Shown here piece by piece: positions 11,494 to 42,695 of a stretch of 64,000 bases of DNA. The translations under genes and the position numbers were made by a program. The stretch covers positions 52,234,440-52,298,439 of the forward strand of contig OX485807.1 in NCBI GenBank assembly GCA_950295325.1, read 5' to 3'. A model generated the notes under the pieces. It worked only from the letters and a program-made list of their open reading frames with translations, ran no database searches and was not told where the DNA came from. Within the stretch, counting starts at the first letter, position 1. Each line of letters begins with the position of its first letter. Source of the stretch: Polytrichum commune (Eukaryota > Streptophyta > Polytrichopsida > Polytrichales > Polytrichaceae).

Positions 11494-14425
11494 TCATTCT
11501 CCATCTTCATCTTCATCTTCATTTCCATTCTCGACATCGTTTTCTGCAGCAGCAATACGTGCCAAGTTGTCTTTGGCAAAATCTATATATTTTTGGAGGA
11601 TGGTCATTGTCTCTGATTTGGAACCTTTGCGTGGTTTCCAAGCACAAAGTATGGTATCTGTGTTTATCCATATTGGTTCGTATGCTGAGTCCATTGTCCA
11701 TTTGAAACCTTTTTTGATGTCCCACCTTAAATATGTGCAGAGCATATTTTGATCTTTGGTGCTGGGACGACAATATTCCACCTCAATTTGATGAAAATTT
11801 GGGCTAGTTGGAACAAAATTTGGTGACGACAATGCTTTTACCAACCAAATTGGTTTAGGGTGCTCCTCATCTCCAGGACGTACGAGGATCATATAACCTT
11901 CGTAGCAATCAACAGCAACACGAAATGATGGAGCCGGACGATTACAAGCTGGGCCAACATAATGGTCGTCCGCTGCGAACTCTTCACGGATGTCCCCATT
12001 GTCGAAGAACATGGCCTCAGATTCCACGATTGTCATTCGGCTTTGTGGCCAAAAACCTTGTGTCAAACATGAATGTGTTTCGACATCGGGTGCTAGCTAT
12101 GCTGAGCGAATGCGATCCCAGTACGTAATCAATGGTTCGTGGGTATCCCGAACACGCCTTGTGATGTCTTCCTCGCACAATTCTTTCCAATATTGGATGA
12201 ATCCGGATATACCTTTGATGATTTTTGGTCCATTCCTCATGGGGTTGGGTTTGCAGGGCTTCAGCTCCCCATCAGGTAGCATACATTTGCCCTCTTCGTT
12301 TTGGCGCCATACGAGTATCCCTTCCTCTGGACCCCAATCCGGGGAAGTGCACAAAACTTTGAATTGCATGGCCGGCAGACCATCATCACGCATATAGAAT
12401 CCTCCTCGTGCAACTTCATACTCCAACGTCCAAATGAAGCGTCAATGTCATCATGCGTGTAACCAACCATAAAAAAAGACATAAACATTTCTTTGAAAAT
12501 GCCCTTGGCTACGAGCAATGACCAAAAACAAAACACGTATTGACATTTGTTGTCTTTGGCACAATTGTCCAGTTGCACGTGTAGAGTTGGAGGCAAAGGT
12601 TTAGCAAGAACGGTTTGTTCAGGCGGTTCTTGCAGTGACGATAGACAAACTTCTTTCCCCTCTAGCACAACCTCATAAATCGGTGTTGTTCCACATCCAA
12701 CAAAAAGAGCACAAGAGGATGATGTTGGCAGACTCTCAAGATCTCGTAGAAGTTTTGCAAAAGACCCTACGGTATGATTGGCGTCGCCTGGATAGAAATC
12801 CAAGCCATAATGTGCATACTTGACGTCCACATGGTCATGTGCAATCATACCTGAATTAAGACATACAAATGAAAAATACATTCCAATATCATATATGATA
12901 AGGAAATTCAATTTTTTCGCAAGCAGGCCAAGAAAATGAACAAACACTTACGGACGTACATCCGTAACTCTTAACGATGAGTATGTGGGTGCATGTAAAA
13001 AAAATGTGAAAACCAACGAACATGTGACAGATATTGGGAGCTTGAAATATCCATCTGTAGCCTTTATTTTCCGTGCATAACAAGGGCACGCAGTCTTCGC
13101 ATGGTCCATTTTGTCATGAATGATTGTCAAAACTCATTTGGCCTCATTATCGATAATGCGCGATTCTTATAATAGTCTTGACGACGTGCCTCCTAGTTGT
13201 TGACATGCTCAATGTATTTCCGTTGATGTTTATTGTGCGACTTAGTCCCTATTGGATGTGCATCTCGAAGGCCCTTATATTTCTCACAAGCAGAACACCT
13301 AGCAAACTTAACCCCAGGCCTCTTCGTAATGTATTCTGCAAATTGTTGATTCTTGATCACACTCAATTTTGACAACGAAATCGGCCCACATCCAGATTTT
13401 TCGCCAACCTCATTAACATCCATAAGTATGTTCTTCCATTTTGTCCCTGTAGGCAAAACCATCTGGACAACCTTTTCCCCCGACGGCAGAGTCCGTGTCT
13501 TGTGTGGCATCGCATCCGCTAATGGCATAATGATGGTTGATAGTGTTGCAGCCGCTTGGAGTGTTGCCTCCCTGGGCTTCTTTGTGCCAGAGTTGCCATG
13601 GAACCGAGAACGCCGTCCTTGTAGCGAGTAGTTCCGAAACCTATAAAAATTTGCCTTTGAAACTGCATGTATAATGTACCATGCCGTGCAACATATCTCT
13701 ATATTTTCCAAGGTCAGAACCTTACGACCTTCGGCATCAAAGTGCATGTTGCGATGGACTTCAAGTTTCTTTGCAGATCGCATACGAAAGTTCGCAAGCC
13801 ACATCTCTTGTCTCGAAGATTTGATTTTGTCACGGGGAAATAGTTGGCAACACCTCTTTGCACAACAATCCTTTATTGCTACGGACCTAATAGATGTGTC
13901 TCCCAATGTTAGATCTCGACGACGTTGCGTGGGTTCACGGGGCACGCGAACGGAATCATATTTACACCGACCTTATCTAGGACGCATTGTGGCGAACAAA
14001 ACCTTTTGTATTTCCTCAAAACGACGGGCATAATTCCACAAGCTGACACCATCGTGAATAACACTTCGCAACGGCTATCGATGAAGAGAGAATCTCCAAC
14101 CAGGAGGTACTTCCAAAGGATTTAAGGAGTTCAAAATGCACACCCCAACATCTTCCTCCCCAAGGGGATTTGCATCAATACAGTCCGTAGGATTTGAGTT
14201 CCTACAAACACCATCGGCCACGGGGACGCCACATCCATTGACTAGGACAACATCAAGATCAATCCACTGTTCCCACGAATAACCCTCACATGGTGGTATG
14301 AAATCATCCTCTGCATTTGCGACATCAATTGTAGTTTCCTGTTCCATGACACCTTCAAATTTGCTACCATAGCTTGACGCTTCCGAAGAGAACTCAAATG
14401 CACTATCATCGACGTTGGAATCCAT
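11494..14425 (-). pseudogene. Outer-element transposase (DUF7869-like), decayed
   Basis: This is the counterpart of the inner transposase at 27345-31393. The start ATG is at 14425, just after an intron acceptor (TTGTAG). The homologous path runs through a Cys-rich CCAKRCCQLFPRDK, then HDKMDHAKT, an intron of about 150 bp holding one outer palindrome (12947-12968), then VQLDNCAKDNK and GYTHDDIDASFGRWS. These three acidic motifs are the candidate DDE/D residues. Lesions seen: TAG at 14075 (where the inner copy has Trp), TAA at 13973, TAG at 13193, a frameshift near 13150, a deletion of roughly 60 codons plus frameshift near 12430, and TAG at 12097. The inner element is inserted 74 bp upstream of the ATG, in the presumed 5' intron. 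It cannot make a full-length protein. Confidence 0.75.
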
Positions 14426-14494
14426 GGCCACTACAAGTGATCCAAATGAAGAGTATGTCAAAATATCCCATTCAATAAATGTCATAGATAGTCC

Positions 14495-14498
14495 TAAT
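14495..14498. other. Target site duplication TAAT, left copy (inner element)
   Basis: TAAT directly precedes the left TIR of the inner element; the same four bases follow its right TIR at 31925-31928. Confidence 0.8.
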
Positions 14499-14526
14499 AA
14501 CACTATATTCGTTAAATTGAGACTTT

Positions 14527-15045
14527 TTGGGCATTTTGAGACATTCACATAAATAAGGACAAGGATAAATGGAACACATATTGGAGAAAGTTGTAAGATG
14601 CGAACACTTTGAAGCGGGTGTTTAGACCAAGAACCCCATTAATATCTCATATTCGTGATTGTTTAGGGTGAGCAATCCAAACCTTAGGCCACGTTGAATG
14701 GGAAATCTTAAAACATTCATATTATCACACACAAAATATGAGAGCTTGTATGAATATGGTTTAGGCAGGGCAATCCAAACCATAGATCATATTGAAGGGG
14801 AGATATGTCAAGCAATATAATATAACATACAAAATATTCCAAACTCATATTTGTGATGGTTTAGGTAGGGCAATGCAAACCTTAGACCATATTGAAGGGG
14901 AAATCATGTGACAATTATATTATTGCAAAAAAAACATACAAAGTATGGCATGTAAAATGCATAGCATGCTAACACCACACATCCATTGGATAGTGCAACC
15001 CAAAATCATATTGCCTATGGCCCAAAACCCTACGCCTACTATGGC
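14527..15045. repeat. Inner element left subterminal repeats, about 100-bp period, three units
   Basis: A unit GGTTTAGG-AGGGCAATCCAAACC followed by TTAGACCATATTGAAGGGG-AAATC recurs at about 14662, 14758 and 14858 with increasing similarity. It lies between the TIR and the last cargo gene, the position where transposase-binding subterminal repeats are found in other TIR elements. The right end lacks it but has GAGTGCTCTACC twice (about 31714 and 31760). Confidence 0.55.
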
Positions 15046-15332
15046 CTATCTAGCCTCGGAGATTGCCTCTTTTTCTTTTGCCTCTTTTTCTTTTGCTGCG
15101 GCTTCTTTTGCTCGCATTGCTTCAACATTCCTGAAAATCTCCGCCCCGCGACTATAGCCATTCTTGGGGTGACCGCCATCAATAACTAATTTTGGATTCC
15201 GTCGGCCGCCCGAATTATACGACGAAGAATTCGAATACGATGAAGTGGATTGTCTTGCATTTCTGGTCATGGAGTAGAAACGCTCCAACTCGACGGACGT
15301 ACTAGCTCGCATAGGTTTACGGGTGGGACCAA
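15046..15332 (-). CDS. Small basic cargo protein, exon 2
   Basis: This minus-strand exon follows an acceptor (CGTTGCAG at 15333-15340). It begins VGPTRKPMRASTSVELERF and passes a Ser/Tyr/Asn-rich tract, then GYSRGAEIFRNVEAMRAKE. It ends in an Ala/Lys/Glu helix (AKEKEAKEKEAISEAR, stop at 15046). The outer copy at 44398-44730 keeps the segment GYSRGAEIFRAMDAIKAKE and the charged helix. That conservation across two diverged elements implies the protein mattered to the element. I recognise no domain; a short DNA- or RNA-binding or coiled-coil adaptor is possible. It is the gene nearest the TIR, about 520 bp away. Confidence 0.55.
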
Positions 15333-15399
15333 CCTGCAACGCGTGAATGCAAGAACACACGTGTTAGTTTAGGGAGGAAGACCCAAACGTGTGAAACGT

Positions 15400-15819
15400 T
15401 CATTTTTTAAGTGCGGGATGATTGTAATGCGCGGTTAACCAAGTTTTTTTTTTGGGGGGGGGGTTCACCTTGTCACCGGGGGCATTCCCGTCGGAGTTGG
15501 CGAGGAGGGGCAATGCGTCCCGCAAAGGAATAGGAAGGGTGCCACTCTTCGTAGGCCGAGCGTCCATCCGCAGCCGCCGTTGAGGTGTACTACTGCCGCC
15601 GGGCCGAGAGGGGGACGTCCGGACGCATTTGCGATTTATGCCCTTGAGCGGCGACGGGGACGGAGAATGCCGGAAGATTTGCTTGGGTGGGGGGCTATCG
15701 ACGACGCAGGCGTCAAGAGGCTCCTTGGAGTAGTCGATGGTGGACGCGGCATCGTAGACGGTCTCGTAGAAGAAGCTCCCTAAGTTTGATTCGCTAACGA
15801 TCTCAATCGAGGGCTCCAA
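15400..15819 (-). CDS. Small basic cargo protein, exon 1
   Basis: This exon comes after an acceptor (CCATCAG, about 15825). The open frame gives about 130 residues, with the exon closing at a donor (GTGAAC) near 15468 so that the true coding part is about 15469-15824. No ATG is visible at the exon start, so an upstream exon or non-ATG start must supply it. Conserved with the outer copy (43861-44250): YDAASTIDYSKE / VDAASAVDYSKD, VVDSPPPK / VVDSPPAK, and SPSPSPLK / YAPSPSPLR followed by a basic R-rich part. Two SPSP motifs suggest proline-directed phosphorylation sites. Function unknown. The adjacent 15450-15465 contains a run of about ten G. Confidence 0.5.
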   Translation of the reverse strand: MEPSIEIVSESNLGSFFYETVYDAASTIDYSKEPLDACVVDSPPPKQIFRHSPSPSPLKGINRKCVRTSPSRPGGSSTPQRRLRMDARPTKSGTLPIPLRDALPLLANSDGNAPGDKVNPPPKKKTWLTAHYNHPALKK

Positions 15820-15949
15820 ACGCTGATGGCAAAATTAAAACAAACAAAACCCAAGGGGAGGGGGGGGAGGGGGGGGAGGGGGGAGCATGTGAAAATCGAT
15901 ATACATTTGAGGCATAATATATCACACAAATGGCACACCATATACTATC

Positions 15950-16747
15950 TCAAATGAGTTTATTATATTTCGCGTGAGCGTACAACTCTCTGTACATATA
16001 GTCCTTCGGATCCATGTATCTTTCGCCTATCGGATTACAACTAAGGAACCGGGGCACGGGTAGTCCGCTCCCCACGAGCGTTTGAAGGTACTTAAGTAGG
16101 TCTAACAAAAAGCGGTCTCGGACCTTCTCGACCGTCCACGTAGGGCAAACTATGAAGTTGGAGGTCGGGTTCAAAATGTTTTTGGAAGCGCTGTCGTCCA
16201 CCATCAACGTGTTGTCACGGGTGGGGCGAACGTCGTAGGGATAGCCAACCATAGTTGGACGCTGGTCCCATACGACTGGCTTCAAGACCTTAAGAAATTG
16301 GTTTACGGCGGGGTTGTTGGGCTTCTTCACAACCCTGCCCTCGGGGGTGTATAATGTTTTACAAGAATCTTGTCCTAGGACCAAGCACGGGGGTTGGAGT
16401 CCCTTGAAGATGAACTCCACGATGGCCTGGGTGTTCTCGGACTTCATGGAGCTCCAAACAATCACCCACCATTTGGATAGGGCGACCTGTAGGAAGCGCC
16501 GAAGCCACGGGCGGAGGTACACTAGCTTGCTTTTGATGTACGCGGGGGGTCCATCGTAGTTCCCATCCTCGGGCTTGCAGAAAGGCACCGTGGGGACCCT
16601 GGGACAGTGCACGCACTGGACGAGGACCCCGTTGAGGTCTAGCACCAGGAACCGTGTCTTGGGCGGCGGAGACGGGGAGGGCAAAATCGAGGGGACCACC
16701 ACGCTGTCCTCCACACTCCTCGGGGAGGACCGGTGGGGAGCCACCAC
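15950..16747 (-). CDS. FCP1/NIF-like HAD-fold phosphatase-type cargo protein
   Basis: An intact single-exon frame of 265 codons, stop at 15950. A Pro/Ser-rich N-terminus precedes HAD motif I FLVLDLNGVLV (about residues 33-43), motif II VIVWSSM (about 94-100) and motif IV TLMVDDSASKNIL (about 178-190). These are the landmarks of the FCP1/NIF (TIM50/SCP-like) branch of HAD phosphatases. Motif I is DxN rather than DxD: the second Asp, normally the general acid/base, is Asn. The outer copy has the same DLNGVL, so this is a family trait and not decay; plant HAD relatives with DLNGLL exist. It may be a weak phosphatase or a phospho-binding protein. It lies between the ParB/methyltransferase-like gene and the small gene, all reading left. 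Confidence 0.75.
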   Translation of the reverse strand: MVAPHRSSPRSVEDSVVVPSILPSPSPPPKTRFLVLDLNGVLVQCVHCPRVPTVPFCKPEDGNYDGPPAYIKSKLVYLRPWLRRFLQVALSKWWVIVWSSMKSENTQAIVEFIFKGLQPPCLVLGQDSCKTLYTPEGRVVKKPNNPAVNQFLKVLKPVVWDQRPTMVGYPYDVRPTRDNTLMVDDSASKNILNPTSNFIVCPTWTVEKVRDRFLLDLLKYLQTLVGSGLPVPRFLSCNPIGERYMDPKDYMYRELYAHAKYNKLI

Positions 16748-17186
16748 GCTATGCTCCGATCCCTGCGGCGACGAGCGAGAGAAGGTGGCGATGACTATGT
16801 TATGCTATGTCCATCTCAAGCAGAACGGAAATTTTGTGCAAACACAAGAAGAATTGGACCATTGGTGGCAACAAAAACATACAAGGGGAACAACATACAT
16901 TGGGACATGGATGCAAACATATGGGCGCCAAAAATAATAATTTAATTGTTACAAATCTCTATGTACAATTTTATGGGGGGGGGGGGCGCAGTGAACGAGG
17001 GCATTCACACTATCCTAATTGTACATCTACAAAATTGGTTGCGCGCCGCCAAGGTTGAGCGTAGTCGAGTGAGGCGAGACGAAGGGGATCGCGGGGGGAG
17101 CACGTTGTTGGGTGCGGCGGGGGGGGGGTGTAGTTCCTCATAGCTAGGGGAGACACGACCACGCCAACAAGACAATGACCAAGGAA
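16748..17186. other. Intergenic gap between HAD gene and large cargo gene
   Basis: No gene recognised. A 12-bp G run occurs at about 16975-16987. Short plus-strand frames here are shadows of the minus-strand genes. Confidence 0.45.
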
Positions 17187-17599
17187 GTTTGGGTCGGTCG
17201 ACCCAAACTGGGAGGGCTCAGTGTGTTACCTCGCCCTGGTCATGTCTCGACGATGTGGATGCCTCCACCGTCCCCGGTGCCCCACCTCTCTCGCCACCGC
17301 CTTCTCCGCCTACGTCAGGGACCTTGTCCTGCAAAGGTTGAGCATCAGGCCCTTGTCCTAAACCAATCTCCGCATATGCATCATGCATGGGTTCATCGAT
17401 TTGGTTAGGAGTAGAGGTATCACCAGGCCCTTGGAGGCCTTCAACATCTAACATGGTTGTGTCTCTTTGAGACACAAGTTCGTCAAGGGAGGACTGAGCT
17501 GCTTTGGGGTTTGGGTCGCCCGACCCAAACTATCCTGCATCGGGGGAGGCGCCTTGGGGCACTACAGTCGAGGGTGGGTTTGGGTCGGTCGACCCAAAC
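17187..17599. repeat. Inner palindromes 1-3, at the 3' end of the large cargo gene
   Basis: Three copies of GTTTGGGTCG-NN-CGACCCAAAC at 17187-17208, 17509-17530 and 17578-17599. The third lies inside coding sequence and is read as FGSTDPNP. The second straddles the TAG stop and would be read as FGSGDPNP if translated. The outer element has its own palindrome in the equivalent coding place (42561-42582). Confidence 0.85.
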
Positions 17600-18782
17600 A
17601 TCCTGGGATCGTCCGCCTGGTGAGGGGGCGCCATCACTATGGGGGGCCGTAGTGGTGGAAGGCCCAACGGGGAGGAGGCTCCAGATACGCGCCAGATGTT
17701 GGGATCGTCCACTTGTTGGACCGGCGCGTACGGAACATGGGGCGGCCGCATCATGTATTGGAAGCTAAATGACCCTTGCGACACTGGGTGCTGAGGGATG
17801 CTCTGCGCTGGGAAACCGGGGGGCAAGTGCGGAAACGAGCTGGACGGAGCCACCACCAATCCTTGCGCCCACATCCCTTGTATGACTTGCGATATCAAGT
17901 CGGCGCTGGATGGAGGTTGGGCCATCGCCCTTAGTCTTTCTTGTTCCAAGAGGAGAGCCCTCAGCTCTGCGACCTCGTTCCGCATGGAGGGTTCTTCCGC
18001 GGCAGCCCTTTGCAGGCGGACACGCTGCTCCTCGTCTCTACGCATCTTCTCGTTGGCTTCCTCCACAGTGAGGACCTCGGGTTTCACCCTAACCATGCCT
18101 GCGAACGCTATCGGTGAGGGGGGATCCGATCTGAGCTGTTTGGCGAGCTCAATGTCGTCGTCGTCCTCGCTGCTAATGGCAATGGTCTCCTCCAATGCGT
18201 AATCGCCATAGAGCTTCTTTCCCTTTAACTTCCTCCTCTCCCAGAACGTGGCAGTCGCGTCCCTGGAGTACATGTCCCTCGCATCGTCCACCGTAAGGAC
18301 GGGCATCATCTTATTCTGCGGGGTTGCCACACGCATAGCCTTCTTCCTCTGAGGGGCTTCAAATTCTTGCATGAATCCCGTTGCCCCTTCCTCCACATCC
18401 CCCTCCTTTTCCTCCTTTCCGTGTTCTTCTTCCTCCTCCTCCTTTTCCAGCTCTCCACCTCCTGTACGGGACGGATTGCCCGGATGCAACCCGACTAGAG
18501 GTTCGGGTAATTGGGTTGTTGCCCTCATCGCAATTTCTTCCGGGTTGATCCGCCTCGCCCTATCAAGAGGGTTCTCACCCCCCTCAACAACCTCGTCCAC
18601 GTAGCTTCCCGGGATCCAATCGAGGATATCCATCTTCTTTGCCAGCGATTTCTGCGTCCTGTAAAATTGCAGATCGCCATCCTCTATGTACGAGTAGATG
18701 TTCAACCCCAACATCTACACAATCCAAGTTATATAGAAATTAGAATTTGCAAGACAAAAAACAAGACCAAAAACAATATCTA

Positions 18783-18908
18783 GTTTGGGTCGACCGACCC
18801 AAACCAAGAGGGGCCTAGTTTGGGTCGACCGACCCAAACCAAGAGGGGCCTAGTTTGGGTCGACCGACCCAAACCAAGAAAGAGCCTAGTTTGGTCGAAC
18901 GACCAAAG
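18783..18908. repeat. Inner palindromes in intron 2 of the large cargo gene (four copies)
   Basis: Perfect copies at 18783-18804, 18818-18839 and 18853-18874, and a shortened one (TTTGGTCGAACGACCAAA) at 18889-18908. Spacing is 35, 35 and 36 bp. They lie wholly inside the intron 18715-18937. The outer element has three copies of its own palindrome in the matching intron. Confidence 0.9.
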
Positions 18909-20358
18909 CTGCGCAAGAGCTAAAGAATGTAACTTACCATGGCAGCATAGACGGGTTTCGAGCCCCCGAACACATTGAAGATACAGTCCCCTCTCCTAGT
19001 CAGGGTCCTCAGCATCCGCATGTAGAATTCCATCCGCAGTTCATCTGCAGGATAGTTTGCGTATTTGGCCTCGTCGTATAGGCATTTGCTGGCACCTAAC
19101 CCATCTGGAACTTGGAAGAGCTTGTCCATCCGGGATATAGGGTGGTTCGGCACCTTCAACAACTCCGCTTTGTACACGAAGTACAAACACAGGACGTTGA
19201 CGACCTTGGTCTTCTTGTCCTTCAACGACGTGTAGGCCCCCTCCGCCGGTGCGGCGATGTAGTGAGACTTGGAGACTGCATACTCCGGCTGCAATTTCCG
19301 GACAAGGTCGTACACCTGCTCCGCCCTCCTATCCTCGACTATCCATAGCCAGACATCAACCTCCCTGAACTTAGGACTCGCATAATCGACGAACTTAGAT
19401 AGGAAGGGGTCGTAAAACAGTGTGCTCATCGTACCCTCAAATGAGCTTCCAGGAATGTTCCTGAAATCTATCATTCCGAATGGAAAACGCCCCCCTGCTT
19501 TCGTCCTTATGGCCATTCTGGCGTCCTGACCTGGCCAGCCCTGAATTTTCAAAGGCTCGAAGGTGACAAGGTTGAAGTAAGCGTCCCCTTCAAACTGGAC
19601 AATCTTCTTCTCCTTGATGAAGTTCGAGAACGCACGCGCTGTGTGATCCGGAAAAGCCCGGTTCTTCCCACCCTTCACCATCTTGGCCCGCAAGAAGTCG
19701 TCCCCCGCTTCCCTTATTAGAGCCGCCATGGAGGCACTGGTGAACTTATATTCAGCTTTGAATGCTCTCCAGTTAGCCTCATGAACCTCACCGTCCACGA
19801 CAATATTCCTCTCCGGCACCAATTTATGCAGCTCTTGCACTATAGTTGTCTTCTTTTTCCTATTCTCCGTCCATTCCTTCATGGTGTAGCATGAAGGGAC
19901 GAAGGATTTGGGCTTTAAGAAGACAATCTTCGGGTGCACCCAACACCTTTTCGCTGTGGGCGTGAAATGCAGGATGTGCGCCGCCGCCTTCTCCATCTCC
20001 GTCTCGGAAAGGCCTTGAAGAGTTCTAAAGAACTCTCTCACGAGAGGCTTCATTTGTTTGAAGCGCGTGGTTTGGTTGAAGAAAATTCCTGTGTCCGGGT
20101 CGATGAGCTCACCCGTCTCATGCTTCTCAAATACACTCTTCCACTTCATCCAAACGGAGTCGGATGCTGTGATTAAATAAATCTCCCCTCTAAGCTCGTT
20201 GTATTTCTTCTGTTTGTGACTAGCATTATCAATGGAGGAGAATTTATTTATCATTTGGTATTTGAAGTCCTGGATGTGATCAAAACAATCATTTGAATGC
20301 ATGTTAGATATGTACATGTGATTTCCAAAACATATCATGACCAGTATCTGCACCAAGA

Positions 20359-20472
20359 ATTTGGGTCGATTGACCCAAACTAAAAAAACATGACTGCAAC
20401 AAGACTTTGGGTCGAGCGACCCAAAGTACACAAATAAAGCTGCAAAAGGAGTTTGGGTCGATCGACCCAAAC
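20359..20472. repeat. Inner palindromes in intron 1 of the large cargo gene (three copies)
   Basis: Copies at 20359-20380, 20405-20426 and 20451-20472, exactly 46 bp apart, inside the intron 20270-20481. On the gene's strand each is followed within about 12 bases by a T-rich tract and GCAG, like a 3' splice acceptor. Confidence 0.9.
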
Positions 20473-21524
20473 AATACTCACCTCCCACTTGGGATTCTTG
20501 TCCTTCGCATTCTCCCTCTCCTTGGGAAGCCTACCATAGAACTCCCACACCTCCCGCGAGGCCATGATATTCCTTATCCAGGAAGCTTGGTAGGCACTTT
20601 TCTTATTGCCCATGTTAAAGTAACGGGAGATGTCGCTCAGTCGGGTCTCATCGTCAGACCACACCACCAGTGCCTTCCACACCATCAACTTCTCCTTCTG
20701 ATGGTTGGGATCGTCCCACTCAGTCATCAGTTGGATTTTCTTGGAAGCCTTAACGCTGTGTTGGCCGTCTATGAGCCAAAAATCGCCTTTCTGAATTGTC
20801 GCCCACATTTCAGGGGTAGACATTTTCTTCAGTCCCTGGGGCATCACTACAATGGTTTGCCTGTCGTCTTTGAATTGTTCGCTAACGATCTGCGCGATTA
20901 TCCAATCGATGTAGGCGTCTTCTTTTGCCCGGACACATTTTTCTGGTGGCACGAGATGATACTAACTGATGTTCACGTCGAATTTGAAATCCCTGCCCAT
21001 GAAAAAGCACTGGGAGCACTTGGTCGTGAAATTGTTCACGATTTTTTGGATCTCCCCTGCATCCACTTCCTGCCCTGGCTTCGGCATGCGCAATTCGGGA
21101 GAGATTGGCTCGTTAGTCATCACACATGACTCTCTCGCCGTCTTGGAGGGAGTTGTTTGGCGGCTGCCAGAAGGCGTAGGAATCTCGCTAACCGCCGGTG
21201 TCTCCGATGGAGTGGTTCGTCTTGAGCTAGCCGGGACTGGTTGCGGCATCCTCACCGATTGAGGCCTTGACGACCCTGCACCTTCCTCAGTGGGTACCTT
21301 CCGCCTGACGGGTTGCTGAGACTTCGTTTTGCTCTGCAGGGCTTTGTTGAGCACGCTGATTGCATGCTTTAGTTTCGTAAACCGGCTCGAGACCTTTGTG
21401 TTCGATGTACTGGCATCGATGAAAATTGTCTCGGGTTTGATTACGTCAGGTTCGACACATGACTCCCTTGCATATGTAGCGTCAAATGGTTCGACGAACT
21501 GGTGCAGAAACATATGAGCATTCT

Positions 21525-22507
21525 TGTCGCGCACCTCTCCATGAGGAGTGTCCGAAACACCATGGGCACAAGGGGGACCCCGGAGTGACACCCGGGACTT
21601 GTGGCGCCGTTGGTGAGAGGGCCCAAGTGATCCTAGTGTGGGTGAGGGCCCCGGGCGTTGGGAACGCCTCCCACCCACGAAGACTAGGAGGCACAAGGGT
21701 AAGGCCATGAGCTATGCGTAGCTCATGGCGTGGTGATTCTAGAAAGCTCAAGAACACCTCAATCGGAGGTGTGAGCTAGGAGTTATGGCCATTTGAGTGG
21801 GGCGCTGTCCTGGGACAGCGCCCTGGTACAGCAGTGCCTGGGAGTGATTCCCGGGACTGCCAAGGTTCAAACAGGCATAACTTCCTCAATACTTGCCCGA
21901 ATGGGGCAAGTGAGGAGTCCATCGGCATCTACGTGAAGCGTAGATGAGGATGGAGTGGTTGGTTGTTCTGATCAGACATCATACAAGGAAGTTATGATGG
22001 TCTGAAGCTGGGGGGGGGGGGGGGGGGTTATAGGCCCAGCAGCTAAGGGAAAATGTCCACTTCGCCCCAACTCTTGGTAGAGAGACAAGAGGTTGGTTGG
22101 CGGTGGGGTAGGGGCTCCGTGTAGAGTCCTAGAGGCTTATATGGGTGAGGTGGTGTGGCCTCACCCACCCGAGGCCGAACGGCAAGGCCTCCATGGGCAT
22201 TGGCCCATTGTGAGGCCATAGTTGCCTAGTATGGTTCGGGTTGTTGTAGTGTTGCTCCGGCAACGCGATGATCAACATAGGATTGGACTTCCATGGATGG
22301 AAGTCCACATTGGGGAAATGGGTTACCGATTAAGGGGTGAGTCCCGAAAGCAAAGTAGGAGGGTTGGTTCCCTCCTATGAACTATTGGTCCGGGGTTAGA
22401 GGAGCTAACCATTAGCATGGCGGTATGCGAAGGGTTAGGCACTCGTAACCTTTGCTAGAATTGAAAATTGGCAAGATGGTCAAGGGGGGCTAGCAAGGGT
22501 TGCGACA
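21525..22507 (+). mobile_element. Solo LTR copy 3, inside exon 1 of the large cargo gene
   Basis: 983 bp, TGTCGCGCACC to GGTTGCGACA, with perfect 5-bp duplication ATTCT (21520-21524 and 22508-22512). It contains a run of about 18 G at 22010-22027. Discounting the LTR and one duplication restores the reading frame of the host exon. Very similar to copies 1 and 4, so these are young. Confidence 0.9.
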
Positions 22508-26072: not shown

Positions 26073-26100
26073 TTTAGGGTTTAGGGTTTAGGGTTTAGGG
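26073..26100 (+). repeat. Short interstitial telomere-type repeat (TTTAGGG)
   Basis: About four TTTAGGG units in the centre of the inner element, 1.2 kb from the other run at 24891. Confidence 0.8.
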
Positions 26101-31896: not shown

Positions 31897-31924
31897 AAAG
31901 TCTCAATTTAACGAATATAGTGTT

Positions 31925-32614: not shown

Positions 32615-32712
32615 TTTCAGGACAATACAGTCACGTTGGCAGACTCACATAGCAAGTGGTCATGATGTCAGTTCAGGTGCAATGCCGAACTATGGTTCCA
32701 GAAGGTACGTAG

Positions 32713-33124
32713 GTTTACGGACGCGCGTCCGTAAACCTCATTGTACATGAGTAATACCTCAAGTACAATTCTCAAAGTAATAGATATCCAATTAACCAAC
32801 AGGTTTAAGGTTTACGGACGCGCGTCCGTAAACCTCATTGTACATGAGTAATACCTCAAGTACAATTCTCAAAGTAATAGATATCCAATTAACCAACAGG
32901 TTTAAGGTTTACGGACGCGCGTCCGTAAACCTCATTGTACATGAGTAATACCTCAAGTACAATTCTCAAAGTAATAGATATCCAATTAACCAACAGGTTT
33001 AAGGTTTACGGACGCGCGTCCGTAAACCTCATTGTACATGAGTAATACCTCAAGTACAATTCTCAAAGCAATAGATATCCAATTAACCAACAGGTTTAAG
33101 GTTTACGGACGCGCGTCCGTAAAC
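32713..33124. repeat. 97-bp tandem repeat carrying the outer palindrome, five palindromes
   Basis: Palindromes start at 32713, 32810, 32907, 33004 and 33101, each exactly 97 bp apart. The 73-bp linker (CTCATTGTACATGAGTAATACC... to CCAACAGGTTTAAG) is virtually identical in all units, so the array expanded recently as a block. The linker itself contains a TGTACATGAG.CTCA-type small dyad. Confidence 0.9.
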
Positions 33125-35249
33125 CTCCGTGATTTGCGGCGCCATAATAGGACCCTTGCACCAGGAACGATACCTGCCATAAACAAAAATCAATCATACT
33201 AAGTGCAATCCACATTAAAATTGGCTCCACTAATGGGTTTAGGGTTTGGAATTTAGTGTTTGGGATATAAAAAGTCCATTGCAATAAGATCTGTACCTGC
33301 ACGAAATAAACATCCAGCACGCTACAATGGTCCAAGCAGCGCAATCCACATCTGAGATGCAAAAAGAGTCCCTTGGTTGGGGGATGTCACCTTAAGTACT
33401 CATCGTTTTCCCTTGGATCCGTTTTCCAACATAGGATACTAGCCACCAACTACGTCCTATAAATAAAAACCTAACATTTATACATTCCGTGTGCCAGCCT
33501 TATAATGGAATGTGTATTCATAGTAGACAACATGCATAGACCATGAGTCCACATAATGACAAAGCAAAAGGCATCTACATATTTATGGTGGACAACAAAG
33601 AAAATTGGCTAATAATATATGAGCATTGAACATTGTTGAGGGGGGTTTTAATATTGAAGTACCTAATATTGAAAGGTCATTGTAGAATTAGTAGACAGAA
33701 AATTATAGTATCGTGTAAAAAATTAACCACAACAACAACAATAGTACATGGAGAATAAAAATACATGTCATTCAAAATTAAACTAGCATCTATTTTATTG
33801 TTTTGCATACGATGTAATGATATTCACTCCAATATCATGTTATCTCCTCTCATCTCGCATTTAATATCGTAATTACATTGGCCACCACCCTACCATCCAA
33901 CCCGTTTAATTTACCCACCTTTACACACATATATATTATTGTATTAATACATACACAAACTTTGAGCACCTAGAGGCCATGAAAGTAGCACATCTATTGT
34001 CATAGATACTATGGGTTGCATTAAAATCAATATTGTCAATTACCTTTCTTAACCTTAGGGCCCCCTTCAATACATCAACATTTATTTCAAAAAAACTAAT
34101 ACTAGCCTTCTTCATGTACTATACGTGAGAAAAAAACCAATTTTTGTACCCCATGTACATTATCTACAGTAATGACTCAAACAATAGCAATTGTTGTTCC
34201 AAGTACCATTATGAGCCCAACAAAGCATAATGGAAAGAAGGGGAGGGTAGGGTATCCAAATATTATTAAGGCAAGCAATATTAAGTGGGTGACAGAAGAG
34301 GGATACTCTCATTAGTTCATACGTGGTACCCTAAACCCTAAACCCTATAATCGCCCAACCCTAAACAAACACGAGGACATAGTGCAAGCATGGTTAACTG
34401 AATAACTCCCAATACATGTCAAGGCTTAAGTGGAAGTAATTCAAAACTAATATATGACTACCTTTAAATTTTGTAAAATAAAACCATAAACATTTCAAAA
34501 GTGAAGCAAATTTATGGGTAACCTTACCTTTCATTTTTTTAAATCTTTCTTTGGCTGGGTAAAATCTACCCCTTAGAGGCAAGTACAAGATTTGGCTGAT
34601 ACTTGTTATCCTTTTATGTGAGCTTAACATAGCATTATTCAAATCCATAACAATGTTTTGTGGGATTGATAGTATTTTATAAAATATTCCTTTATATTCC
34701 CATATTAAGAGTGAATGTGGGAATATCAAGGAATGTTTTGTGGGATACTATGAATCCCAGAAAACAATCATGTTATGGACCTGAATAATGTTATGAATGG
34801 AAAAATCCACCTACATTGTTAATATGATGTCGTTGTTAAATTGTCCAAACATTACATCACATAGATGGATTTATGTTGTAAGCCATATTTTACCATTTGC
34901 TTTAAACCTTTACTTTTGATTAAAGGTTTTCAAGATCATATATTGGTATTCTATAATCGAGTACTTAACACAACTTACCACTGAAACAAAAACTCCAGTA
35001 TAAATAAGTTTGCTACTACTTATAAGCGATAATACAAGCTCAGGTCGCGGTGTGGAAAGATTGGATGAATCCCGAAGGTTGTGTAATGTGCAAGAGGGAT
35101 GTAAATTCAACACATACCCATTCGTTTTGTTTTAATACAAGCTTAGACCTATGTGTGGAGGGACAGAATTAATCCGTAATGTTGTTTAAGATATTATAAA
35201 CATATGAATTCAACCCATATCTCGATGTTTTGGTTTTGTTAATTGCGTT
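33125..35249. other. Outer element centre, no gene recognised
   Basis: AT-rich. It holds a complementary telomere-type run (CCCTAAA units, 34328-34346). No frame shows a domain. Confidence 0.5.
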
Positions 35250-35495
35250 TCAACTATGCTTAAATTTAAATATCATGCATAATGATACTCGCATCAAAGC
35301 ATCCAAAGTGTCCAACTTCAATGAAGTTTGCAAGTGGCTCTTGATAGTATAATTTAGGTTTGAAAATCCCCTTTCACAACTTATTGCGATAATTGAAGGA
35401 TTCACAAGTATGACATGGCAAAGTTTCATGAGAATTTGTGGCCAATTGGTATATTGTCCCAATTGCATTTGAATCCCACCTTTGAGAAGAAACAA
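35250..35495 (-). pseudogene. hAT transposase C-terminal dimerisation fragment
   Basis: An 81-codon minus-strand frame contains ISCERGFSNLNYTIKS followed by SLKLDTLDALMRVSL. The pattern ERGFS.(x)n.R/K..L..DTLDALMRV is characteristic of the C-terminal hAT dimerisation region in ZNF862/KIAA1586-like transposases. No catalytic part is present. It is a remnant lodged in the outer element's centre. Confidence 0.6.
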
Positions 35496-36289
35496 ATCTT
35501 ATACTGAAGTTAATCAACAAGAAATATATAGTCCCCTCCATACATGCTACACTACAAATGGTATTTAGTTTCTCTCATTGTTTGGAGTTACAAAATGCTT
35601 TCTTTTATTATTATTTAAGGGTTTTAATTGTTGACAATGACATAATATACAATGAATAGTTATAGCATTCCAAATAATTAAATATTAAGCGATACTACTT
35701 ACAATATTTACTGTACTAGTAATTTAAAGCCCGCTTACGCTTATTTCAATACTTTTACGTTTCCTAAAATAATGAATACTTTATGGAGCTCGTATGATTA
35801 TTTCACTCATTATCAAAAGTGAAGATTCTCATGTTCATGAAATGGTCATATAGGTCCCTGCAATTATGTTGACTATTGAACCTAGATGGTTATCATACTT
35901 TGAGCATTGAAATTCAATATTTTTTGGTTTGCAAGTGTTTTTGGTATCCGTTCTTGGAGTCAAACCACAGACCACTCAAACGAATAATGTTGGTCCTATT
36001 TGCCAAAGCTACAAATGAGATGTCTCATTTTATATTTAGAGATGGATTTAGTGTGACTTTAACTTGCCTTAGCATAAACATAAGATGTTATTATGACATA
36101 TGATAATAACATCAACGAACTAAGTATAAATCACACAAATAGACTGGTTTATTGAGAAAGATGAGTCTATACCACTTGTTGTACCAGTAGGGTTATGCCA
36201 CGTAAGGGTTTAAGGTGGCATTTGGACGCGGGGTTGATGCGACGTTTGGGGTCGGGACACTTGGAGACCCTCTTTTGTTTTAGGGTTTC

Positions 36290-36620
36290 AAAGTGCACCA
36301 GCTCCTCTTGGCCCTCCTCTTCGCGTTTTTGTTTCGTGCTCTTGTTGCTCTTCGGCCTCTTGTTGCTCTTCGTGCTCTTGTTGCTTTTTTTTTGCTACTA
36401 TCTTGCTTCTCTTCACACATTGCTCTTCGTGCTCTTGCTGCTCTTCTCTTAGTTCTCTTACCTCCTACTTCTCTTACTGCTCTTCATGCTCTTGCTGCTC
36501 TTCTCTTCCTTCTCTTCCTTCTCTTACTTCTCTTCCTTTTCTTGCTGCTCTTCCTTCCCATTATTGTTGCTCCCATTCTTGCTGCTCTTCTCATTCTTGT
36601 TGCAAAACCCATTCTTGCTG
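36290..36620 (+). repeat. TCTTGCTGCTC / TTCTCTT low-complexity tract
   Basis: Pyrimidine-rich imperfect repeats of GCTCTTGTTGCTCTTCG and TTCTCTTACTTCTC. Overlapping frames give Leu- or Ser-rich artefacts. It could be leader DNA for the rightward cargo gene, mirroring the purine-rich tract near 23.9 kb in the inner element. Confidence 0.6.
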
Positions 36621-37414
36621 GTCAATTGCGGAGGCTCCTCAGAGCGTGAGTAAGTTTCTTGCGTGCTGGTGCCCATTAGGATGCTCTAGGAATACTTTCA
36701 GTTGTTGCAAGGTTTTAGGGTTGGAGTAGTTTTTTCCCCCTTTCATCTTGAAGCATGTGTTTTTGACAATTCAAAATGAGTAGCTTCAATCTGTAGTTCA
36801 TTGTTTTTTTGCATACAAATCAATAGTTCCCTTTCACTTGTGGTGCATGGTCGGTGTTAGTGTTTCAATCTGATTTATGAGCAACTTGTTGTAGATTGTA
36901 TTGGAGTAGTTCTAAATGTTGTTCTTCCATAGATGATTTCCTTAGAGAGCATTGAAAGAGTATGCAACAACAGTTTCATTGAATCATGCATGTGTACATT
37001 GAATTACTAGAGGTTTCTACCCTGAATTATATTGTAAATTTGCAGTTGGTCCTAGCTGCAGGACCAGGACGAGGAAGAGTTGTGGTTTAGGAGCAAACAT
37101 TCTACAAAGGTAAGAATTTCTATAACATTGCAATTGCATTTTGTATGATTGCACTTTTTGGTTGTTGTGGTTTAGGGCTTAAGGTTAGCTTGAAAACATA
37201 TGAGCTGCAACAACACTGAGAGCAAGTGAGATTCCAATTTCAATACTTTCTGAATTCGTTTGGTACTTTTGATTGCAGAGTCTGGTATTGCAATGCAGAG
37301 CCATATTGCATTCGGATTTGCTGATCAAAACCATATTGGAAGACAAGGCAAGCTTCCGAAAAATACAGAACAACCCCAAATATTTAAATTTAGAATAATA
37401 ATAAATTCCCTAAA

Positions 37415-38191
37415 GTTTACGGACGCGCGTCCATAAATTTTAGGGACATTTGTGCGAGTGAGAAACAAGACACTCACACAATGTGTGCAGAGGTTACGGA
37501 CGCGCGTTTGTAACTTCCAGAGATTTAAGTAGGATGAACTTCTCCAGCATAAAATATTTGCAAAGTTTACGGACGCGCGTCCGTAAACTAGGCAAAACAA
37601 AGTGAAAATCCATTATATAATATATGTGCAGAGGTTACGGACGCGCGTCCGTAATTTCTAGAGATGAAAATTCACCTTCTTAATATATTAAAAAGTTTAC
37701 AAACGCGCGTCCGTAAACTAGGGGAAGCAAATATAAGAAAGAAAATCCTTTTCTAAGAAAGCATATCCTTTTCTAAGAAATCAGATCTTTTTTCTAAGAA
37801 AGCAGATCCTTTTCTAAGAAAGCACATCCCATTTTAAGAAAGCACATCCCTTTCTAAGAAAGCACATCCCTTCTATCATACCAAATCCCTTTCTATCATA
37901 TATGTGCAGAGCTTACGGACGCGCGTCCGTAACTTCTAGAGATATTATATACAAATATGAAATATTTACAAAGTTTACGGACGCTCGTCCGTAACCTATG
38001 CATATATAAGTAAGCAAATCATTTTCTATCTTATATGTGCAGGAGTTACAGACGCGCGTCCATAACCTCTTCAGATATTTGAGTATATAGTATACGCGCT
38101 ATGCGTATTCACTACAACTGGATGTTTTCATTTGGATATACAATATCTAAATGACAGAATACACAATCTTTACAAACGCGCGTTCGTATAT
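37415..38191. repeat. Outer palindromes, cargo-side group (about nine copies)
   Basis: Copies at about 37415, 37492, 37565, 37633, 37695, 37911, 37973, 38045 and 38170. Two contexts alternate: AAAGTTTACGG...GTAAACTAGG, and TATGTGCAGAGGTTACGG...GTAACTTCTAGAGAT. The latter places a GCAG acceptor-like sequence before each palindrome. The group lies just upstream of the outer large cargo gene, as the 23034-23214 array does in the inner element. Confidence 0.85.
37738..37880 (+). repeat. 20-bp tandem repeat (TTTCTAAGAAAGCACATCCC)
   Basis: About seven imperfect units of roughly 20 bp between two palindromes. No coding content. Confidence 0.8.
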
Positions 38192-39557
38192 TAGGATCTG
38201 TATCCATTGACCACAATACTAACTTGTTGTCTATCTTATTTTTGCAGAGGGCATCTAAAAAAAGATCCGCAAATGAGATGTTCGCAGATGCTCTCATTCT
38301 TCCGCTGCCAGAAGATATAAAAGACATCAGCCCCAACGACCACTACAAGCCACAAGATGACATTGTAGATAATGGGACAATACTAGTAGAGAAGGACGAA
38401 AAAAAGATATTTGTGCTTAGATTTGCCTACCAAATTAAGATGGACATAGATGATGCGGAGAAGTGGCTAAAACTTAAATCGTGGACAGTAGAGTGTGCAG
38501 TGGCCCAAGGGGATTATGTAGTAGTTGACCTTGAGAAGAAAGAAGATCGAGTCACATTCATTTTGCAAGAATCTTACCATCCCTTTAACAAAAATGAGTG
38601 TGAAAATGGTAGTCCCGATGCGGCTTGCTTCAATCTCCAGACGGAGTTCCAAGACTATGCATGCAATGCACCTTGGACGGGTAAGCGGCTTGGACGACTC
38701 TTGAACAATGTTACAAAAATGAATGGGGCCTTGCTAGAGGCCAGAAAGGGGAAGGAGAAGAAGAAACAAATCGTTCCTGAACGGCCCAAGCGTGTCCCTA
38801 AACTTGTGCCGGAATCCTCGAGGCCCTCGCAGAGTGGTGCATCAAGAGGGAGCAGACATGCGAGTAAACGTTCTCACTCGCAGATGGAGTCATCAAGGCT
38901 AACAGAGGGCCCGGATGTCAGTTCAACACTCACTGTCGCTCCTCTCCTTAAAAAAGGTCAACGTCCTAACGCCGAACTCTCCACAAAGATATTCCAAGAG
39001 TTCGATGAGAAGACAAAGGGTTGCTGGCCGCTTGGCAGGTATTTCACTTTCGACGTAGACGTCTACAAATGCCACAAGGGCACCGAAAGTATGAATACCA
39101 GAGCAAAAGAAGAGAGCGGAGTATAGTGGCAAATAAACAACATCATGAACAACCCCAAATTTGACAGGCAGACGATTTGCGTCACACCAAAGGATCCTAT
39201 CGTTGAAGTGAACGAAAAAAATTGGCCCATTCTCAAGAATGGAGAGTTCTACATAGTCGACGGCCAACATAGTGTGATGGCTGCAAAAGCTCTCCTTAAA
39301 GACGACGAGTGAAAAAACCCATTGAAAGAAACGATCCGATATTGGAAGGCATTCGTCCTGCATTCCAAGGACTCGAACCAACTCATAGCAATTTCTGCTT
39401 TCATGAACCAAGGGAATAAAGTGAGGCAGTTCGAGGCTTCATGGGCAGCCAACATCGTGGCTGGGAGGACCTTGTGGGTGGAGCACAAATGTCCCCCAAA
39501 AGAAAAAGACAATGCAGTCATGAAGAACCCTAAATGGCAGGTATGTCCTTCAAATAG

Positions 39558-39581
39558 ATTTACGGACGCACGTCTGTAAAT
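39558..39581. repeat. Outer palindrome in intron 1 of the large cargo gene
   Basis: ATTTACGGACG-CACGTCTGTAAAT with one mismatch between arms, inside intron 39541-39672. Confidence 0.8.
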
Positions 39582-41036
39582 CTGGCCCTTCTCGTCCCAT
39601 TGCTTCAAATATTTTAATTTAATCTGTCTTGATTTCAATGTTATGATTTCTTGCAATTCGTGCCTCTTGCAGACATTCAGCAATGTCATATGGACAAAGT
39701 TCTCGAGTATAGACATGAAGACAAGCGGCATGAAAACAATGCATGAATTGAAAGGCGAACTCAAGCTCATCACTGCAACAGAAAAGACGTGGTCAATATG
39801 GTTGCGACTCTTCGATGTCCACAACAACGGCGACCTTGTCAATCCAGATGCAGAGAACACCTACAAGAGCGACTCAAAGGTTAAGGTACCACCAATCCTG
39901 CGAGAGTTCTTTTGTCCCCTCCAAAGATTGATGGACTCGGAGCTGTACAGGGCAGCACAACATATTCTTCTAGAAACTCCTAGAAGGACTCTGCCCTATC
40001 CCAAAATCTTTCTGAAGTGGCCGAAGCATATGAAGCCATCCACATACCACATTAAGGAATGGTGCGATTACAGAAAGAAGAAGACCATGGCTGTAAGGGA
40101 GATTAGCAAATTGCTACCCACCCACAACCTCATTAATAGTAATGGTGAGATCGTGTGGGAGAATTGGAGGAAGCTGAAGGGTAAATACCACATCAATGGC
40201 CTCTCCATGCGAGCTTTGATAAGGGGGCATCATCCTTCCTTGCCCAACGATCCAGAAGGAACGAAAAGAAGGGATCCATCGACAAGAGGGAGGCAGGGTT
40301 GTACGTGAACTTTCTCGATAGGAAAAAAAAAGCGAAATTCGGAGGGTTTGCAAGATTTTGCACGGTCACAAAGGGCATGAAGTTCGGCACATGGGACACC
40401 CATGCTTCAAGAGCCTCTGTGAGAGATGACCCCCGGGGTTGCCCTTTCGCCATTTTTTATTTTCGTGCAATTCCCGGAACTTGGAAACAAGACGTTGCAG
40501 GATCACCCTTCTACGACCCCTTCTTTAAAGCCTTCAAGAGCTATTGCTCGCCTGCCGTCTTTAAGCCTCATGTGTGGTTATGGATTGTAGAGCACAAGAG
40601 GTCTACATCCATTGTCCATCTATACACATCAACGATGGACCTCAAATACGATCTGTACCACAACACCTACATCTCGGCGAAGACAGAAAGGATCACTGTT
40701 ATTCAAGAGGCAAGAGGGGTGAAGCAAGTGGGAGCTGTACAACTTTATTTCTTGACACGCAAATCCTCACCAACTGGGCAATTGCCTATTAAACCACACG
40801 AGGTGTTCAAGAAAGTCTACTCGTTGCCCCCACCACACCCCAAGGAGCTTGTGGAGGAGACAATGCAGGCCGTCTACCCGGCGTTCGAGCTCCGGATGGA
40901 CTTTTATATTGGAGTCTTGAAGGCTTTGACTGTCATGAGTGAGACAGTTTACAACGTCTTTGGAGGCACGAAGTTTGTTTATGCAGCATTGGTGAGTATT
41001 TGTTTGTCTTTCAACCCACGTATCTTTTGCATAGTT

Positions 41037-41159
41037 ATTTTACGGACGCGCGTCCATAAAATAACCCAGTATTAGGTGCACGGGAATTTTACGACCGTGC
41101 GTCCGTAAAATTGTCCCCCATCTTTTGAATGTTGATTTTACGAACGCGCGTCCGTAGAA
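41037..41159. repeat. Outer palindromes in intron 2 of the large cargo gene (three copies)
   Basis: At about 41037-41062, 41086-41110 and 41136-41159, each starting ATTTTACG and about 50 bp apart, inside intron 40992-41232. The arms differ from the upstream copies (ATTTTA instead of GTTTA), yet remain palindromic, so the pairing itself is kept. Confidence 0.85.
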
Positions 41160-42560
41160 TGTCTTGACATCTAGCCTCATGTATATGTCATCACCACAAT
41201 TGTTCCTATCTAATTTTCTTGTTATGGTGCAGATGCTTGGGTTGCAGGTGAATTCTTTTGTGGAGGATACCGACTACGATGACATCCATACTCACAAGGT
41301 TATTGCCTCCAAAATGGATATCCAGGACATCATGGACGTCCTTACACCCCATCCTGTGGTGTCTCTTGCTTCTAGAGAAGAGGCAATGCCCGGAATGGAG
41401 ACAGACCCTGAAGAGGACCAAGATCCCAGTTCCCCAAGAGCGCAGCCCTCCACACAGGAGCCTTTACACGGCCTTGTCCGCGACCCAATTAATCCAAGTG
41501 TTTTCCTGCTGGGCACAGATGACACGGATGCACAGGAGACACACGTGAACTTCACTCCAATTAGGGTCCATCATAACCCTGTTCTCTTACCTTTTGGGAC
41601 TTCCACCTCTCGAGTTGGGTTTCCTTCAACTGCGGGTCCATCTTGTGCTGTAGGTGTTATTGCGGAGAAGGATGTGGACCTTGCGGCAGAAGGCGGATGC
41701 ACCGCTTCATCTCGAGGGGGGTCTCAACATTCAGATCTACCCCCTATGGAGGGGAGGGATGTGCTGGAGTTGATATTGAGGCCTGATATCTCTCTATATC
41801 ATGAGAGTCGACGAAAGAGGAACAAGACGCCATACAATGAATACCCTGAAGGCGCGGTCTTGGAGCTCTCCGATGAAGACGAGGATGAGATTAGGATTCA
41901 CAATGCCATCTCTGCCTTGCCTACCGAACCTGGCAAGGTGAAGAAAGAGCCGATGTCAGTGTCCGAATTGGACGAGAAGATGGAGAAGCGAATGAAGGAA
42001 GAGCTTGACCAACGGCTTCGAGAAGCTAACAAGGAGCACGCCAAAAAGATGGCCGCCATCCAAGCTGAGATGGAGCAAGCTAGGTTGGAGTCTACTCGAA
42101 GGCACGCTGATCTCATGGCTCAAAATCAGCAGTTCTTGGCCCAGAGCCAACAATTCATGAGCTTGATGCAGAGCTTGCAAGCAAGGCCCCAAGTTGTATA
42201 TGCAGCTCCCGAGGCCGGCATGTCGATGCCCACCACTCTCATGCGGCCTCCATCTAGTAGTCATGCAGTTTATATACCCGAGCATGCTTATCTAGCTCCC
42301 ACGTTGATTGTCCTGCCCTCTCCCATTGTTGTCGCCACTCCAGAGCCCTCCTCTCTTCCAACAGGAGTGGAGGAGATACCGGCACGTGACACGGCGGGTG
42401 CCGCCGAGAGAGATGTCAATGAAGGCAACGCCCCCATCGGCGATGAAGATGTACATATGCGGGGCAGCCAAGACTCCACAGATGAGGATCAGCCTTACAT
42501 GGATACTCAAGGGTCGCAAGCGGCTGGAGACACTTTGTTGGTGGTCGAAGATTTGGACAA

Positions 42561-42695
42561 TTTTGCGGACGCGCGTCCGGATCCTGTGCCCATGACGGGG
42601 CCAGGTGAGGGAGGCACTGCTGGCGCGGACCTCGCCCCTGAAGAGGTAATCAACCTTTGAGCATGCCTCCCACGTTACGGACGCGCATCCGTATC
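42561..42695. repeat. Outer palindromes at the 3' end of the large cargo gene
   Basis: TTTTGCGGACGCGCGTCCGGAT-like copy at 42561-42582 inside the last coding exon, and GTTACGGACGCGCATCCGTATC at 42674-42695 just after the stop. These match the placing of the inner copies at 17578 and 17187. Confidence 0.8.

Follow-up and report, generated by a model that had tools for sequence, protein, structure and literature searches.

The stretch analysed here, called the window, is a 64,000-nucleotide segment of the genome of the moss Polytrichum commune (assembly GCA_950295325.1, 408 Mb in 64 contigs; contig OX485807.1, here C5, C5:52234440-52298439), and it contains two nested transposable elements, each of which carries its own set of 20-bp palindromes together with a large gene whose product we call the reader. 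The borders of both elements were fixed by comparison with copies elsewhere in the genome. The inner element (14499-31924) is inserted into an outer DNA transposon with a TAAT target duplication and has identical 26-bp ends, and in a sister copy of the outer element on contig C1, which is without the inner element, the insertion site is uninterrupted. The outer element (10837-45146) has a GTAG target duplication; its left terminal inverted repeat lies at 10837-10862 on the plus strand, preceded by GTAG, and the right one at 45121-45146 on the minus strand, followed by GTAG, with a duplicate copy of this end at 45045-45070. In fact the outer right end as a whole (45045-45146) is a 76-bp tandem pair with the terminal repeat in each unit. 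The first 17 bases are identical in both inner ends and in the outer left end.

Each element has the same gene set, namely a DUF7869 gene, the divergent reader gene and a NIF-like phosphatase gene. The DUF7869 protein is, from its sequence, probably the transposase. Its gene in the inner element is at 28621-31393 on the plus strand (Pfam DUF7869, 8e-41) and is contiguous with the first palindrome array described below, as seen in copies without the insert at 27646-28620; in the outer element it lies in pieces at 11494-13972 on the minus strand, where one piece matches Pfam DUF7869 (5.8e-29) and the rest was aligned to the inner gene. The inner reader gene (17530-22795, minus strand) has exons at 22795-20482, 20269-18938 and 18714-17530, the first of which is broken by a repeat at 21525-22507 and by a TAG near 20960. 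The outer reader gene (38244-42660, plus strand; exon 1 about 38244-39543, exon 2 39673-41006, exon 3 41233-42660) has a stop at 39124-39126 in exon 1 and one frame change in exon 2, and its exon borders were set by comparison with an open copy of the inner type (C5:8093269-8105969), which encodes a reader of 1347 residues in three coding exons with GT...AG introns.

Palindrome A, TTTGGGTCG-NN-CGACCCAAA, is confined to the inner element, and palindrome B, TTACGGACG-CG-CGTCCGTAA, to the two parts of the outer element. With at most three mismatches the window holds 20 A sites (17 exact), all within 17188-27102, and 24 B sites (9 exact), at 12948 and in 32103-42694, while dinucleotide-preserving shuffles of the window give means of 0.01 and 0, respectively; at four mismatches with a free centre there are 24 A matches, 25 B matches and one match to the type C introduced below, the additional ones being weak. 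In both elements there are sites upstream of each of the two divergent genes, within introns 1 and 2 of the reader gene, where its last coding exon ends, and past its stop. For A, the mismatch scan places five sites upstream of the DUF7869 gene (26800-27102), six upstream of the reader, partly in 32-bp units (22823-23183), three in intron 1 (20360-20471), three in intron 2 (18784-18873), two at the end of the final coding exon (17510-17598), at a distance of 69 bp, one of which is just beyond the early stop of the inner copy and still exonic in the open copy, and one past the stop (17188-17207). For B, there are nine sites upstream of the DUF7869 gene, partly in 97-bp units (32103-33122), eight upstream of the reader (37417-38065), one in intron 1 (39560-39579), three in intron 2 (41040-41157), two at the end of the final coding exon and past the stop (42563-42694), and a single site with three mismatches within the outer DUF7869 gene itself (12948-12967).

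These results bear out most of what the initial annotation of the stretch had proposed, that is, about 20 copies of one palindrome only in the inner element, about 25 of another only in the outer, and the same positions in both; the nesting it had described is supported by the terminal repeats, the target duplications and the uninterrupted site of the sister copy, and the positions hold up to the intron borders of the open copy. Its wording that the two palindromes are unrelated, one having wholly replaced the other, was too strong, since the sequences do differ but the half-sites TTTGGGTCG and TTACGGACG have the same base at 6 of their 9 positions.

Outside the window, 36 further loci were collected, 32 of them from the list of reader-motif matches on C1 (covering the spellings of the motif) and four by identity, and their sites were sought by a palindrome finder with no prior motif and then by a motif scan. 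A third type, palindrome C (TTACGAACG-NN-CGTTCGTAA), was found among them, the half-site of which agrees with that of B at 8 of 9 positions. All three types keep a common frame of 20 bp with TT outside and CG beside the central pair. Together with the inner and outer elements, the 38 sequences comprise 17 with A, 5 with B, 14 with C, one with decayed C-like sites (L028) and one without a site in the stretch read (L008); in the latter 3.8 kb were read, C sites lie just outside (2270109-2276149), and two copies of a repeat of about 980 bp have pushed the parts apart. None of the 38 sequences holds two strong types together, and L007 has eight C sites with one weak A match. The placement of the sites in the gene is common to all types and the spacings vary; for example, a long stretch of a C element, whose left end was not reached, shows the same layout with 29 C sites and the same right end. 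In some B elements (L033, L034 and L035) intron 2 has a sub-variant of the B half-site, TTACGGCCG, perhaps a change of specificity under way.

In the whole genome, exact sites number 9731 for A, 1026 for B and 3737 for C, with none for the reversed-pattern control of each. A degenerate motif for the reader gives 619 hits (290 + 329), and its control 1 + 0. The distances from sites to readers were matched by hand from coordinate lists, for the first sites of each type. For B, an outer-like reader match lies no more than 10 kb from 49 of the 50 sites listed on C1. For A, 81 of the first 100 sites on C1 fall in three clusters that have a reader-motif match, 16 are beside matches to the genes X and Y of a second family, and 3 are only beside the D sites of that family, both described below. 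For C, 67 of the first 100 sites have a reader-motif match within 13 kb; of the other 33, 31 are grouped in a single cluster at C1:640865-646098, in two arrays separated by about 3 kb.

The types of palindrome follow the reader proteins. In protein searches with reader exon 2, 90 of 1237 and 146 of 960 candidates were scored. On a tree of 37 reader proteins, A, B and C each occupy one side of a branch, so that the type changes twice, which is the minimum; shuffled type labels require a mean of 15.7 changes, and in none of 200 shuffles as few as 2. L008 was dropped from this tree for its short protein match, and L028 was included and labelled C, with weak sites (four C and one B, three to four mismatches each). 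As near-copies make such clustering easy, the force of the result lies in the absence of exceptions. Moreover, B and C have both the most similar readers and the most similar palindromes, one base apart per half-site. In reader exon 1 the identity is 43% for B-C, 35% for A-C and 32% for A-B, and by quarters of exon 2 it is 45-57%, 33-42% and 35-41% in the same order, while the DUF7869 proteins are 81-84% (B-C), 64% (A-C) and 54-72% (A-B) identical. The reader thus evolves faster than the DUF7869 gene.

A arrays away from the elements described so far, the first family, at two loci (L045 and L046) led to the second family, with a gene X and a reader Y, where a Y match lies within 15 kb of 97 of the best 150 X matches listed (the best 150 of 1506 X candidates and the best 150 of 1339 Y candidates were scored). 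Its palindromes are of three types, D (CCTGTGCGTT/AACGCACAGG), E (GTAGGGCGTT/AACGCCCTAC) and F (TTTGTGCGCT/AGCGCACAAA), and both E readers carry stops. Gene X, a putative transposase gene, has no Pfam match, and for this reason the label of a Mutator-like transposase, at first given to it, was dropped. In the 9 kb read at the locus of the X query there are seven sites of type A and none of type D. Among the matches listed, and over 147 residues, X is 90-94% identical to the query beside D clusters on C1 (7 loci) and 85-93% beside F clusters (9 loci). For example, at C6:42081000 an X of 92.5% identity is accompanied by a reader of just 39% and by sites of type F; furthermore, two loci preselected for a reader match of 40-42% beside an X match were found to have 7 and 4 F sites, as predicted. 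The exact F pattern occurs at 36 sites in 11 clusters, 9 of which are within 13 kb of a listed X match. Among the best 150 reader matches listed, a D-like one (at least 46%) lies within 13 kb of 0 of the 11 F clusters vs 10 of the 11 D clusters on C1, the D clusters being taken from the first 50 of 490 D sites and three partial duplicate rows of the reader list being left out. Since X is nearly constant (85-93%) where the sites are F and the reader shows just about 40% likeness to that of D, it is the reader, not X, that the palindrome follows. A sites are absent from those E and F loci of which a longer stretch was read (C3, C7:9388000 and C6).

The sites themselves appear more constrained than their surroundings. 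In introns 1 and 2, the palindrome columns, chosen by motif similarity, are 0.73-0.98 identical, vs 0.27-0.54 for the other columns, with gaps counted as differences (10/15 C, 11/17 A and 5/5 B rows). The dinucleotide CpG is concentrated in them; for instance in B array 2 of the outer element it reaches 21.2 per 100 bp inside the palindromes and 0.19 outside, and in general palindromes have 8-23 per 100 bp whereas the noncoding stretches are poor in it, with an observed/expected ratio of 0.08-0.65, the sites scored coming from related copies that are not independent. This contrast would fit a selection on the sites in methylated DNA.

As for the nature of the reader, the first-family proteins have no significant match in Pfam, NCBIfam, PHROGs or the PDB sequences. 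By eye, their DGQHS motif resembles the ParB/DGQHR fold, for which the best library scores, TIGR03187 DGQHR (E 0.24) and GmrSD_N (E 0.029), are not significant, and the C-terminal part resembles, again by eye, N4/N6 methylases. The methylase motif [DNS]PP[YFWH] is found in 0 of the 37 first-family reader proteins, nor is it in the full A protein. Second-family readers match Pfam N6_N4_Mtase with E of 3.2e-5 and 1.1e-5 (24.4 and 26.0 bits, below the cut-off of 26.7), and one of them has, by eye, QFPDG at the stretch corresponding to the catalytic motif. Because the catalytic motif is absent in all 37, we take the reader as a binder rather than an active methylase, and the palindromes are probably read, not methylated, by the first-family protein. 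AlphaFold models of a DUF7869 open reading frame (pLDDT 30) and of reader exon 2 (pLDDT 38), both from three-sequence alignments, were discarded as unusable. In the viral contigs searched, there are no relatives of the DUF7869 or the reader protein.

The finding is real and is wider than first stated, with several types, two families and an uncoupling of reader from X, but it is also less strict. The idea in the initial annotation that the palindrome type tracks the ParB/methyltransferase-like protein holds in the loci sampled, in the tree with its two changes and in the second family with the reader rather than with X. Its broader suggestion of a specificity switch with a co-evolving reader is well supported by this tracking, and self-recognition fits, while a centromere-like role finds no support. 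That each element has a private palindrome is right for B; A and C occur partly elsewhere, as 19 of the 100 A sites sampled belong to the other family and 33 of the 100 C sites sampled have no reader-motif match nearby. Palindromes scattered outside such elements were what the annotation itself had regarded as speaking against its view, and this is seen in part. The name ParB/methyltransferase-like, finally, has partial support, with a methyltransferase match just under the cut-off for the second family and no significant library match for the first.

Putting these results together, we consider it reasonably probable (about 0.6) that the palindromes are sites bound by the reader of the same element as a dimer, and that this binding keeps the own family active, likely against silencing by the host. 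Binding, dimerisation and anti-silencing are what we infer from the sequences. A dimer of the reader would read the two half-sites of 9-10 bp, and the bound reader would sit near the starts of both divergent genes as well as at the sites inside its own gene. It would then maintain the activity of this family, most likely through the removal or exclusion of host silencing, in the manner of VANC with the VANDAL transposons of Arabidopsis, perhaps with a direct activation in addition. During evolution the reader would change quickly and the turnover of tandem arrays would rewrite the sites, with little change in the transposase, and related families would drift apart because mainly the cognate sites are served. 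A more specific and rather doubtful version is that clamps with the ParB fold load at private parS-like palindromes, spread over the element and exclude silencing, that the classes switch by one base per half-site, and that other families add foreign palindromes, such as the A arrays in D elements, to exploit the reader of a rival.

Several observations weigh against the proposal that the reader serves its own element in this way. No reader relative is encoded in the 4.5 kb on the right-hand side of the C cluster (C1:640865-646098), so the sites are not always within the element that encodes their presumed reader. D loci also hold A arrays (15 D and 7 A sites at C7:12033100, 8 D and 8 A at C4:46960700), and the loci labelled Y (14 A, one D and a weak B) and X (7 A) show A in the second family too; thus A serves two families, and the A arrays in D elements may exploit a foreign reader in trans. 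Linkage by itself would, in the first family, make any gene of an element track the palindrome, and only the second family breaks this linkage, where the X comparison rests on the 147 residues mentioned and no gene match is nearby at 2 of the 11 F clusters and 1 of the 11 D clusters. Moreover, a profile comparison of the motif-I regions shows no similarity between the readers of the two families. The intron contrast is inflated by the way its columns were chosen, and mirrored changes that keep pairing are at chance level, 2 of 46 two-mismatch sites (A 0/13, B 1/14, C 1/19), again among non-independent copies.

Other explanations deserve to be weighed with the same material. Subterminal repeats are known in transposons, for example in En/Spm, and the palindromes could likewise be sites of the transposase or of an accessory protein of transposition, for which tandem arrays with an own set per element type would be natural; we regard this as unlikely, considering that the sites are internal, in upstream regions, introns and the last exon, and not near the ends, that the inner and outer ends are nearly the same while the palindromes differ, and that palindrome and gene X are uncoupled in the second family. 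If instead the reader methylated its own palindromes and thus marked the DNA of the element, the N6_N4_Mtase similarity of the second-family readers would be explained, and a modification of the own element has in fact been suggested in print for the Ectocarpus Sola1 protein (PMC12477816). Such a self-methylation is somewhat more improbable still, given that 37 of 37 first-family readers are without the catalytic motif, that the library searches with readers of this family gave no significant match, and that one second-family reader has QFPDG.

A system for partition or clustering that holds the copies together in the nucleus, with parS-like centromere sites, would account for palindromic sites in many copies and for the resemblance by eye of DGQHS to the ParB/DGQHR fold. 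It appears very unlikely, as the ParB assignment has no library backing, nothing ties the sites to segregation, and no ParA-like gene was noticed, though no search aimed at one was made. Just as improbable is that the palindromes act as RNA hairpins in transcripts, for splicing, stability or as a source of small RNA: judged from sequence alone they can fold on themselves and several are in introns and the last exon, but the arrays also lie upstream of genes, the exact sequence is kept beyond what pairing needs, and the mirrored changes that keep pairing are as rare as just described. Least credible is a functionless turnover of minisatellites, in which slippage spreads the arrays and the palindrome is incidental. 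The unit number and the spacing do vary and some sites are decayed, as this would have it; yet the intron sites keep the motif while their flanks diverge, the type tracks the reader, and the F sites were correctly predicted at two loci.

The reader as a binder of its own sites has its closest parallel in the VANC system. According to the published account of VANC21, the targets are motifs in introns and upstream of genes and in tandem repeats with fast turnover, the transposase is more conserved than VANC, and methylation is lost at cognate copies (PMC5735166). The moss elements share with VANC and VANDAL, as so described, a protein encoded by the element, family-specific motifs in introns and upstream regions, fast-diverging tandem repeats (PMC5735166) and a transposase more conserved than the reader (81-84% between B and C, vs 43% in exon 1 and 45-57% in exon 2 of the reader). 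They differ in that the moss sites are 20-bp palindromes and those of VANC the 9-base YAGTATTAY, that the candidate transposases are DUF7869 and X, and that an anti-silencing role is here only what we infer; the VANC domains DUF1985 and DUF287 were not found when Pfam was run on residues 1-923 of the A reader, on 14 exon-2 proteins and on the B and C pieces.

By description, the closest known protein is the accessory protein of Sola1-1_Ec32 in Ectocarpus, and its authors raise the possibility that proteins of this kind bind the element encoding them and modify it (PMC12477816). Sola1-1_Ec32 is a giant DNA transposon with a ParB-/methyltransferase-like accessory gene on the strand opposite the transposase (PMC12477816), and the moss reader gene is likewise divergent from the DUF7869 gene, in the C element as in the inner and outer ones. 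No word beginning with palindrom occurs in the main text of the Ectocarpus paper. Unlike the Ectocarpus protein, the moss first-family readers are without the methylase motif. The 4-bp target duplications found here (TAAT, GTAG) are a further likeness to the Sola superfamily, although duplications of this length also occur in other superfamilies. For Sola2 elements they have been reported (PMC3627910). The ParB-parS and Noc-NBS systems resemble the present one in having palindromic sites in many copies, and there two bases in each half-site distinguish parS from NBS, while the specificity of ParB and Noc is set by four residues (PMC7383237). Those systems are bacterial, and the reader resembles ParB in a motif seen by eye.

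To our knowledge, VANC in Arabidopsis is the one case in which the sequence-specific self-recognition of transposons has been worked out in detail. In the moss, a protein of another kind appears to achieve a VANC-like self-recognition with long exact palindromes, in two families of one genome. There are at least six types of site, and loci occur in nature where the reader has changed and the neighbouring gene X has not; the hundreds of copies in the genome make the co-evolution of reader and site testable. This also suggests what the ParB/methyltransferase-like genes of algal transposons may do, and such readers are a possible source of new sequence-specific tools to alter DNA methylation. Our literature search, which did not include the Bostrychia paper and the 2011 Iyer review, found no published report of such palindromic sites beside ParB/methyltransferase-like transposon genes.

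Some other features remain to be mentioned. The NIF/FCP1-like phosphatase genes lie at 15950-16804 on the minus strand of the inner element (Pfam NIF, 7.2e-14) and at 43033-43768 on the plus strand of the outer one (1.5e-10). The NIF/FCP1 family is expected to carry DxDx, and both proteins have DLNGVL at this position. The repeat of about 980 bp has five copies in the window, 4886-5882, 8011-8996, 21525-22507, 27646-28620 and 55386-56322, two of which are within genes of the inner element, and others are in L008 (two), in L029 and at C1:478611-479567 and 483694-484668; with its ends GTCGC...GCGAC it looks like a short transposon frequent in these elements. Next to a second-family element, C1:469300-472200 consists of tandem units of about 139 bp that contain the palindrome GGTGTCTCGGTACCGAGACACC. 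Finally, on the minus strand of the window at 57477-60209, in a region of strong GC skew, are remnants of a LINE-like retrotransposon with an open reading frame that is RNase H-like by eye.

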